The notes beneath the pieces were generated by a model. It was not told where the DNA came from. It saw only the letters and a program-made list of their open reading frames with translations, and made no database searches. 35,452 bases of DNA, from NCBI GenBank assembly GCA_021733985.1, contig JAIPJT010000028.1, positions 1 to 35,452 of the forward strand. Direction: 5' to 3'. The position numbers were made by a program, and so were the translations under genes. This document shows, piece after piece, positions 3,685 through 31,612 of the stretch (positions are counted from its first letter, which is position 1; each line of letters opens with the position of its first letter). The DNA comes from Victivallales bacterium (GTDB lineage: Bacteria > Verrucomicrobiota > Lentisphaeria > Victivallales > GWF2-38-69).

Positions 3685-4356
3685 ATGGTGGTGGGAGGTG
3701 GATTCGCCATATCATCCGATATGGCGCCATGTTGGATAACATGGCGAACCTGATTTTTGATAATTTGTTGACCTAGAGTTTAGTTTTTTATAAATACGGG
3801 GGAAATATTTATTAATTTATAGAAAACGTATTGAAAGATTGTGATTTAAAAAATGGTGGTGGGAGGTGGATTCGCCATATCATCCGATATGGCGCCATGT
3901 TGGATAACATGGCGAACCTGATTTTTGATAATTTGTTGACCTAGTGTTTAGTCTTTTATAAATACGGGGAAAATATTTATTAATTTATAGAAAACGTATT
4001 GAAAGATTGAGATTTAAAAAATGGTGGTGGGAGGTGGATTCGCCATATCATCCGATATGGCGCCATGTTGGATAACATGGCGAACCTGATTTTTGATAAT
4101 TTGTTGACCTAGAGTTTAGTTTTTTATAAATATGGGGGAAATATTTATTAATTTATAGAAAACGTATTGAAAGATTGAGATTTAAAAAGTGGTGGTGGGA
4201 GGTGGATTCGCCATATCATCCGATATGGCGCCATGTTGGATAACATGGCGAACCTGATTTTTGATAATTTGTTGACCTAGAGTTTAGTCTTTTATAAATA
4301 CGGGGAAAATATTTATAAATTTATAGAAAACGTATTGAAAGATTGAGATTTAAAAA
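3685..4356 (-). repeat. 168-bp tandem array: tRNA-Tyr 3' ends opened by double hairpins
   Basis: Four head-to-tail units (3685-3852, 3853-4020, 4021-4188, 4189-4356), nearly identical and exactly 168 bp apart, run in register into the true tRNA-Tyr gene, whose 3' end is the next unit's start. On the minus strand each unit has an AT-rich spacer of about 106 bp, then GGTTCG, hairpin 1 CCATGTTATCCAACATGG, CG, hairpin 2 CCATATCGGATGATATGG, then CGAATCCACC and the rest of the tRNA-Tyr 3' end through CCA, followed by T6. In the leftmost unit the 21-base tRNA match is 3686-3706, hairpin 2 is 3707-3724 and hairpin 1 is 3727-3744. The hairpins sit exactly where the T-loop TTCGAAT would close. No open frame of note lies in the unit. 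A sister structure follows tRNA-Lys. Confidence 0.95.
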
Positions 4357-4357
4357 A

Positions 4358-4442
4358 TGGTGGTGGGAGGTGGATTCGAACCACCGAACTCTGAGAGGGC
4401 AGATTTACAGTCTGCTGCGGTTGACCGCTTCGCTATCCCACC
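4358..4442 (-). tRNA. tRNA-Tyr (GTA)
   Basis: A complete class II tRNA of 85 nt including encoded CCA. The acceptor GGTGGGA (5' end at 4442) pairs with TCCCACC (4362-4368), followed by discriminator A and CCA (4358-4360). The anticodon loop CTGTAAA gives GUA. The T-arm is GGTGG-TTCGAAT-CCACC and a long variable arm is present, as expected for tRNA-Tyr. Seven bases separate it from tRNA-Gly upstream. Its 3' end from CGAAT onward is repeated four times in the array immediately downstream. Confidence 0.95.
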
Positions 4443-27732: not shown

Positions 27733-27808
27733 GGGTTGGTAGCTCAGCGGTAGTAGCACCTGCCTTTTAAGCAGGGGGTCCTGGGTTCGAATCCCAGCCA
27801 ACCCACCA
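27733..27808 (+). tRNA. tRNA-Lys (TTT)
   Basis: A complete 76-nt tRNA including encoded CCA. The acceptor GGGTTGG (27733-27739) pairs with CCAACCC (27798-27804), discriminator A, CCA 27806-27808. The anticodon loop CTTTTAA gives UUU, and the T-arm is CTGGG-TTCGAAT-CCCAG. Bases 27788-27808 are repeated exactly at 27900-27920. The 215 bp before it (27515-27732) show no gene; a protein-like frame running antisense through the tRNA is an artefact. Confidence 0.95.
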
Positions 27809-27850
27809 TATATATCAATGTAATTTAAGTAGTAGGTGGTCAGTTAAATA

Positions 27851-27920
27851 CTGGGTTCGCCACAGACATACGACTGTGGCACCATATCGAATGATATGGC
27901 GAATCCCAGCCAACCCACCA
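27851..27920 (+). mobile_element. Double-hairpin insertion in a duplicated tRNA-Lys 3' end
   Basis: Forty-two bases after the true tRNA-Lys, its T-arm and 3' end appear again with the T-loop opened: CTGGGTTCG (27851-27859), hairpin 1 CCACAGACATACGACTGTGG (27860-27879), CA, hairpin 2 CCATATCGAATGATATGG (27882-27899), then CGAATCCCAG and CCAACCCACCA (to 27920), followed by T8. The outer arms can pair across the T-loop, giving a three-way junction. The repeat offset is 112 bp. No coding capacity is present. Hairpin 2 shares its core with the array downstream of tRNA-Tyr. Calling it a mobile element is inference from the repeated architecture. Confidence 0.75.
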
Positions 27921-28080
27921 TTTTTTTTGAAAAAGTTAAGCCGGTGAAGGCTGTATATCTTTTGAAAGGGTTTGCTGTCGTTGTTAAAATGTTGTGCCTA
28001 TGATGGTATAGTGCTTACCCCGGCCGTTTCACCTTTTTATTCAGTTTAATATATATTTATATACTTCAGGAGAATACAAG

Positions 28081-28308
28081 ATGAGTAGAGTATGTGAAAT
28101 TTGCGGAAAAGGCAAAAGCGTTGGCGGATCCATTGTAAGAAAAGGACTTGCAAAGAAAAAAGGCGGAATTGGAATGCATGTTGTAAAAAACACTAAAAGA
28201 ACTTTTAAGCCTAATCTCCAGTCAGCAAAAGTTAGTATGAGTGGAAAAGTAAAAAAAGTTAAAGTATGCGCAGCTTGTCTTCGTTCCGGAAAAGTTAAAA
28301 AAGCGTAA
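28081..28308 (+). CDS. rpmB: Ribosomal protein L28 (zinc-ribbon form)
   Basis: The 75-residue large-subunit protein starts MSRVCEICGKGKSVGGSIV and contains RTFKPNLQSAKV. Two CxxC pairs (C5/C8 and C63/C66) mark the zinc-binding form of L28. AGGAG lies 8 nt before the ATG. It is followed by its own terminator and then by valS. Confidence 0.97.
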   Translation: MSRVCEICGKGKSVGGSIVRKGLAKKKGGIGMHVVKNTKRTFKPNLQSAKVSMSGKVKKVKVCAACLRSGKVKKA

Positions 28309-31074: not shown

Positions 31075-31477
31075 TGGTTGATGTGTATGCCGAAGTTTGT
31101 GAGATCTAAATTAGTAATTTAACTTTCGGATTTAAGAAAACCTATTTAAGTTATTAATAATAAGAGATATAAACTTAAAACAGATGTATGTTTTTATTGT
31201 TTATTTCAATCATACACCAATAACTTTGTACTGAATATTCAATACCTGGATATTGGATACTCTAAATACAAAAATTAAAATCCGTTCGTTGATTTAGCTC
31301 AATTAGAGAGAAACTTGAAACCATAAACTTCAGTTTTTATAGACGGTGTTCATCCAGGATGTCTCTGTTACCTTTTTTTGACTGATCGAAGTTTATTTTT
31401 GATTGAAATTTATTTTTTTAAAAAAAAGAAGGGCAACTGATTTATACCCAAAACGATTTGGTTTATTTATCCATCAC

Positions 31478-31513
31478 ACCATACGGTATGACCTGTATCG
31501 AATGATAAGGTCG
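31478..31513 (+). other. Worn double-hairpin relative in the valS-hflX gap
   Basis: In the 588-bp gene-free stretch 31075-31662 a near-palindrome CATACGGTATG (31480-31490) is followed by ACCTGTATCGAATGATAAGGT (31491-31511; the run is 21 bases with one bulged G) and CG. The inner TATCGAATGATA is identical to hairpin 2 of the tRNA-Lys element. No tRNA end flanks it. The remainder of the gap has short simple repeats (GGTTGAT after valS) and AT-rich sequence, and no convincing gene. Confidence 0.35.
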
Positions 31514-31612
31514 AAAAATAAAGTGTATGTCCAAGTTCATTTACGAAGGACAAAAACCATTCCGTCTTCGTTTTCGCTATTGTGAAACTACGCCGGATTA
31601 AAAAAAAATCGC

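Follow-up and report, generated by a model that had tools for sequence, protein, structure and literature searches.

The window analysed here is a stretch of 35,452 nucleotides (positions 1 to 35,452 of contig JAIPJT010000028.1, assembly GCA_021733985.1) from a Victivallales bacterium. It carries an intact tRNA-Lys(UUU) gene, a short distance downstream of which the end of the same gene is found a second time: the 21-base 3' end (CGAATCCCAGCCAACCCACCA, at 27788-27808) recurs exactly at 27900-27920, at an offset of 112. What separates the two copies (Table 1) is a spacer, a copy of the 5' half of the T-stem and loop, and two successive hairpins (hereafter the palindrome doublet) that lie within the T-loop of the second, displaced copy. 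The loop of hairpin 2 is the inverse of the ATYC loop that is typical of hairpin 1 in the family described below, and this hairpin differs by a single loop base from hairpin 2 of a similar structure at tRNA-Tyr in the same genome (CCATATCGGATGATATGG). The linker between the hairpins is elsewhere in the family CG or TG, which as a rule is the target dinucleotide CR in reverse complement, so that the CA found at tRNA-Lys is a small deviation. Folded as single-stranded DNA, the 60-nt Lys unit reaches -16.6 kcal/mol, against -6.3 +/- 1.8 for shuffled sequences (z -5.7, 0/200), and in the predicted fold the T-stem stays closed around both hairpins. No nuclease gene or remnant of one was found in the insert (27790-27901); in fuller elements of relatives, by contrast, a GIY-YIG gene occupies the place of its 42-bp spacer. 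The source genome is a metagenome-assembled genome in 71 contigs, and the array length and the junctions reported here are known from the assembly only, without reads.

Table 1. Features of the tRNA-Lys and tRNA-Tyr loci, in positions of the window
Feature	Position	Strand	Basis or remark
tRNA-Lys(UUU), intact	27733..27808	+	ARAGORN (tRNA-Lys(ttt)) and Rfam
112-bp insert	27790..27901	+	between TTCG and AATCCC of the tRNA-Lys T-loop
Insert spacer, 42 bp	27809..27850	+	without ORF
CTGGGTTCG, copy of T-stem and loop 5' half	27851..27859	+	ends in the CG of the target
Insert hairpin 1, CCACAGACATACGACTGTGG	27860..27879	+	
Insert linker CA between the hairpins	27880..27881	+	
Insert hairpin 2, CCATATCGAATGATATGG	27882..27899	+	loop GAAT
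Displaced original tRNA-Lys 3' end, CGAATCCCAGCCAACCCACCA	27900..27920	+	starts with the repeated CG
T8, probable ancestral downstream flank of tRNA-Lys	27921..27928	+	T-run straight after CCA in L331 and other relatives
rpmB (ribosomal protein L28)	28081..28308	+	conserved neighbour used to locate empty sites
tRNA-Tyr(GUA), intact	4358..4442	-	four tandem 168-bp units downstream
Tyr array, four 168-bp units	3707..4378	-	4378-4211, 4210-4043, 4042-3875, 3874-3707
Tyr unit 1 doublet, TTCG-HP1-CG-HP2-CGAA	4207..4252	-	
Doublets of the remaining Tyr units	4039-4084, 3871-3916, 3703-3748	-	
Displaced original tRNA-Tyr 3' end, then T8	3686..3706	-	

The neighbourhood of the gene made it possible to look for the arrangement before insertion: rpmB comes directly after tRNA-Lys(UUU) in the window, and some 20 relatives of the order have the same two neighbours. 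In all of these (approximately 20) relatives the insert is absent, and the tRNA runs directly into the spacer, often with a T-run after CCA. Removing positions 27790-27901 from the window leaves CTGGGTTCG|AATCCCAGCCAACCCACCATTTTTTTT, which is the arrangement of the relatives; the point of insertion is therefore the T-loop, and it is the displaced copy that keeps the original flank. The insert, in other words, supplies the present tRNA-Lys gene with its 3' part from the T-loop onward (27790-27808), as judged by the empty sites. The flanks agree with this (L331 has CCATTTTTTTTGAAAG and the displaced copy of the window CCATTTTTTTTGAAAA, while the restored tRNA-Lys is followed by TATATATC). A first-pass annotation, made on the letters alone, had already noted the 21-base recurrence, the two hairpins joined by CA and the T8, and these observations held, with correct coordinates and far from chance expectation. 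Its predicted insert lengths (112 bp at Lys, 168 bp at Tyr) are both correct, the empty sites that it predicted fall exactly in the T-loop of the relatives, and the T-run often found after CCA in element-free relatives supports its suggestion that T8 represents the flank of the gene before insertion. We consider the insert, its ends and its empty sites to be demonstrated.

The same annotation had implied that further tRNA genes would be followed by a copy of their own 3' end with hairpins. This also held: among the 34 tRNA genes of the genome, all of which were examined, an exact downstream copy with a doublet occurs at Tyr (four times in tandem), at Lys and at Pro-TGG. The four Tyr units show 2-5 differences from one another, and the array sequence (3707..4378) contains no nuclease ORF or remnant. 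The two Pro genes are more informative as to content. Behind tRNA-Pro-CGG, at a distance of 20 bp, lies an intact GIY-YIG gene of 86 aa (on C40; PF01541, 4e-14), in an element that is split over two contig ends (C40/C20, overlapping by about 100 bp) and whose right end has only one hairpin left, the displaced tRNA copy being missing. The Pro-TGG element measures 2233 bp, of which about 1.8 kb belongs to an insertion sequence (IS) that brings two DUF1670 genes and has terminal repeats of its own; without it, about 400 bp remain, with a decayed GIY-YIG gene (C14) beginning about 23 bp behind the tRNA. We take the IS to be a secondary insertion because the C40/C20 copy is uninterrupted and lacks it. 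Intact, decayed, IS-interrupted and nuclease-free forms thus coexist in one genome, and the presence of the nuclease in sister elements of the Lys insert is a matter of observation.

The DUF1670 genes were considered as the identity of the Pro-TGG element itself and rejected in this role, other genomes indicating a separate IS with its own terminal repeats (AGGGCAYTTGTCC). An IS-like element in which two DUF1670 (PF07900) genes stand side by side, bounded by AGGGCAYTTGTCC/GGACAAATGCCCT, is seen in locus L037 (about 813-2680) and also in L114, L115 and L116; in another genome it splits a gene. Its distribution is patchy (a match in 12/149 relatives), a GTDB scan with one DUF1670 protein found nothing, and no mention of DUF1670 was found in the open-access literature searched. 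Two other repeats may be recorded here. One is a dispersed intergenic repeat (window 31440-31590 and about 50 further places in the genome, G000) whose hairpin (CCGTATCGAATGATATGG or CTGTATCGAATGATAAGG) hardly differs from hairpin 2 and lies within conserved flanks TTTATTTAT..TCGAAAAATAAA. The other contains CACGTCATTCGACACG, occurs at about 18 places in G000, many of them contig ends, and probably belongs to an insertion sequence present in multiple copies that has the same ATTC-loop palindrome.

We gathered small GIY-YIG genes from 60 relatives and from a GTDB scan. In relatives, the available upstream sequence was long enough for 54 small GIY-YIG loci, and 37 of these follow a same-strand tRNA at a distance of 12-480 bp, the isotypes being Met, Pro, Ser, Leu, Asn, Asp, Val, Ala, Lys, Cys and His. 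Of the GTDB loci, 61/77 have a same-strand tRNA or tmRNA no more than 600 bp away, upstream of the gene in 31 cases and downstream in 30; none of the seven UvrC GIY-YIG controls adjoins a tRNA. The linkage of the nuclease to tRNA and tmRNA genes is therefore established. Where the tRNA lies downstream of the nuclease, it is the 5' part of the tRNA that is rebuilt, and the displaced 5' part lies upstream. A full element measures about 300-430 bp and comprises the 3' part of the target tRNA, a gene for a GIY-YIG nuclease of about 85-95 aa, the copy of the 5' half of the stem, and the doublet; most of the nuclease loci of relatives with an upstream tRNA have, it should be said, no recognisable displaced copy. 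The hosts in the GTDB scan include Patescibacteria, Lentisphaerae, Kiritimatiellae, Planctomycetes and Cloacimonadota, and in the phage and viral collections only weak matches to the nuclease of the elements, and no close homologue, were found. In the genome of the window, a tmRNA gene followed by a small GIY-YIG gene (G000 C9, L165 979-1745) suggests that tmRNA is apparently also a target. The argument of the first-pass annotation that two unrelated tRNAs sharing one type of insert point to a site-specific process is thus supported, and extends to many isotypes and phyla; the probable agent, the GIY-YIG nuclease encoded by fuller versions, was not identified by it.

On a tree of 130 nucleases the isotype of the tRNA changes 47 times (at least 68 in 1000 label shuffles), its side 12 times (at least 21 in shuffles) and the palindrome class 5 times (at least 15 in 2000 shuffles), so that the nuclease clade tracks both tRNA isotype and palindrome class. 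One should keep in mind that this tree rests on 90 columns, with many weak forks, and that the relatedness of the hosts adds to the signal of co-inheritance.

Many displaced copies, in this genome and elsewhere, share a common layout at the junction: ...YTCR, palindrome 1, YG, palindrome 2, CRA... The doublet lies in the T-loop of the displaced Lys, Tyr and Pro copies of this genome and in those of Cys (L189/L218), Thr (L222), Gly (L225), Glu (L238), Met (L272), Tyr (L216, L234, L254), Gln (L219, L244) and Lys (L235) elsewhere; in Ser-CGA (L220, L228, L231, L236) and Leu-CAA (L237, L249) it lies in the anticodon loop. When the tRNA has CA in place of CG, it is CA that is repeated and the linker is TG (14 frames of the type CG..CG..CG were counted, and 4 of the type CA..TG..CA). 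By eye, the paired palindromes are inverted with respect to each other, with loops ATYC and GRAT in one class and inverse loops in two more. A scan for the doublet pattern found it in 6/137 genomes of the order, and all cases checked adjoin a tRNA, with the reservation that the pattern contained the TTCR flank and was not fully blind to T-loops. Significance was judged against shuffled sequences, reversed sequence being unusable since reversed palindromes remain palindromes. The count of single hairpins did not clearly separate the genomes, and the pattern TTCGCCA..TGGCGAA, tried as a marker in relatives, was abandoned, its matches being mostly unrelated (including RHS-like repeats in G003).

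The recurrence of the doublet with its CR repeat is clear, and so is the fact that it is not universal, some members (L181, L207) having other palindromes or a replaced anticodon arm. In some Pro, His and Asn elements (L181, L207, L167) the displaced copy has a single palindrome in place of its anticodon arm or of the region that runs from anticodon to T-loop. Pairs of GAGCTCAGCTC make up a fourth class of palindrome, seen after tRNAs in L271, L273, L274, L281 and L285, together with a distinct clade of Patescibacteria nucleases. Some displaced tRNA copies (L219, L223, L228, L247) have several separate hairpins in different arms, as if they had been hit repeatedly.

Nuclease-free versions do exist in other genomes. 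Mini-elements like that of Lys were found at tRNA-Leu(TAA) of G027 (L298/L347) and at tRNA-Phe of G094 (L301), and in L216 a mini-element behind tRNA-Tyr stands alongside a nuclease-bearing element. At tRNA-Ser(TGA) of G006 (L305), an element about 930 bp long carries a lipoprotein-like gene and no nuclease, and one at tRNA-Leu of G002 (L186) has, by eye, an exonuclease-like gene and possible toxin-antitoxin genes in addition to the nuclease.

We think that the tRNA-Lys feature is likely (with a probability of roughly 0.7) to belong, as a small non-autonomous form without a nuclease, to a family of homing-type GIY-YIG elements that restore the tRNA genes they enter. Since the insert encodes nothing, this assignment rests on its architecture, on the likeness of its hairpins to those of sister elements in the same genome, and on the equivalent mini-elements elsewhere; that the Lys and Tyr inserts are non-autonomous or decayed members is an inference. 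In the scenario that we favour, the nuclease would cut YTCR^A with a 2-nt stagger, a target that most T-loops contain (as TTCRA), as do the anticodon loops of Ser-CGA (CTCGA) and Leu-CAA (CTCAA), and repair or recombination would copy the element into the cut site; neither cleavage nor transfer has been observed. The tRNA part of the element would then rebuild the gene, while the original end would be displaced, with the doublet in its loop and CR repeated on the far side. The doublet may block re-cutting of the displaced loop, or may serve as the recognition structure of the nuclease, and the Lys and Tyr forms may either have been moved in trans or have lost the nuclease gene after insertion. 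Homing enzymes of the GIY-YIG type cut the two strands at staggered positions (PMC3161791). The break made by I-TevI is one of 2 nt with a 3' overhang, and this would fit the repeated CR.

What one would ask of a homing element is met as regards the target, a specific YTCR^A site in tRNA loops, with the tRNA sequence rebuilt and with empty sites in relatives. As regards a GIY-YIG nuclease, it is met by the family and by the Pro elements of this genome, not by the Lys and Tyr inserts. As to protection of the filled allele, the observations point both ways: the displaced loop is interrupted by the doublet, yet the rebuilt tRNA retains TTCGA (in general, YTCRA) and tandem arrays exist, so that simple homing immunity leaves the lack of re-cutting unexplained. 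It is also possible that the 2-bp repeat is a part of the palindrome instead of a target duplication. A bolder reading, against which the balance seems to us to tilt slightly, would make of these elements a new minimal class of transposable element, in which a single-domain GIY-YIG protein and an inverted doublet tailored to the target dinucleotide insert into tRNA and tmRNA loops, rebuild the RNA gene, and mobilise nuclease-free and cargo-bearing derivatives in trans.

Among the alternatives, the one that deserves most attention, though we regard it as unlikely, is a true transposon in which the GIY-YIG protein would act as a transposase on the doublet (in the manner of REP/RAYT, on folded single strands), the tRNA part being a long target duplication. 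In its favour, the doublet is conserved in sequence, forms an inverted pair and tracks the nuclease clade; it is found at unrelated tRNAs of one genome and in the nuclease-free tRNA-Ser element with lipoprotein-like cargo; and the homology between tRNAs is insufficient for switches of isotype. However, GIY-YIG domains are known as nucleases and not as strand-transferases, and none of the cases checked in the 137 genomes was a doublet remote from a tRNA. We give very little credit to classic integration by a tyrosine recombinase at the T-loop, with the tRNA 3' end rebuilt and the small elements as defective islands. A crossover in the T-loop and a rebuilt 3' end are indeed typical of tRNA islands, and direct repeats of 21 bp are present, but it is GIY-YIG that recurs as the gene of the elements, an integrase would be too large for the compact Cys, Asn, Leu, His and Asp elements, and neither the junction doublet nor the elements on the 5' side of the tRNA (30/77) fit such a scheme. 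No integrase was found in the elements examined, whose contents are GIY-YIG, cargo or no genes (this concerns the elements only and not the rest of the genome).

Insertion in the manner of integron cassettes, with the tRNA loop as attI and the doublet as a folded attC, could account for tandem units that each end in a folded site, and one element does have a cargo gene. This too seems highly improbable: the ends of the units are copies of the target tRNA, something not known of attC sites, and the recurrent gene is a GIY-YIG nuclease. We likewise put very little weight on a local tandem duplication of tRNA 3' ends combined with an independent insertion of a hairpin repeat, although the genome has about 50 matches to a dispersed repeat whose hairpin is almost the same, and several hairpins are present in some displaced copies (L219, L247). 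Against it, the doublet stands at YTCR^A with the CR repeat in unrelated tRNAs and phyla, and the linkage to tRNA is shown by the doublet, not by the single hairpin.

By analogy, the closest experimental precedent for GIY-YIG elements of tRNA loops comes from phage T6, whose GIY-YIG enzyme SegB cleaves within tRNA genes at the motif RAWTSGAAC and drives tandem amplification of the locus by recombination (PMC13096335). The reverse complement of this motif, GTTCSAWTY, reads as the T-loop consensus (this reading is our own). Free-standing homing endonucleases of the SegB type in T-even phages thus share with the present elements the GIY-YIG domain, the association with tRNA, the T-loop-like motif and tandem amplification. 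SegB, however, is phage-borne, and a duplicated tRNA end, a palindrome doublet and a tRNA-restoring insertion are not reported in the sections consulted of PMC13096335.

The nuclease of the elements belongs by profile to the same single-domain family as UPF0213 and other small GIY-YIG proteins (PDB 1zg2, 1ywl), whose structures were deposited as those of hypothetical proteins; a separate GIY-YIG clade (L163, L166, L170) does not adjoin tRNAs. REP/BIME palindromes with their RAYT transposases resemble the doublet in being short, with asymmetric loops and inverted pairs, whereas the tRNA elements have a fixed position in a tRNA loop and GIY-YIG as the associated protein; the GTAG/CGTC tag, taken as a criterion for REP/RAYT, is absent from junctions with the CR..YG..CR frame. 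With the tRNA islands of tyrosine integrases, the elements have in common the insertion in the T-loop and the rebuilt tRNA end, but they show no integrase, measure hundreds of base pairs and not kilobases, and can lie on the 5' or the 3' side of the tRNA. In CPR, rRNA genes contain homing endonuclease insertions (PMC11270868), likewise parasites of structural RNA genes in similar genomes; those, however, are described as insertion sequences within the rRNA genes, whereas here the tRNA gene is rebuilt.

The elements themselves were not found described in the open-access literature searched; they are apparently undescribed, and widespread in bacteria. Their recognition would assign a function and a target to many unannotated small GIY-YIG proteins of Patescibacteria, Lentisphaerae and other bacteria, and accounts for tRNA fragments and tandem repeats beside tRNA genes in metagenome assemblies. 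The coexistence of several forms in one genome makes the life cycle of a homing element testable in bacteria. In the homing reading, we would be dealing with a parasite that attacks the T-loop of tRNA, a site among the most conserved in biology, and survives there by rebuilding the gene.
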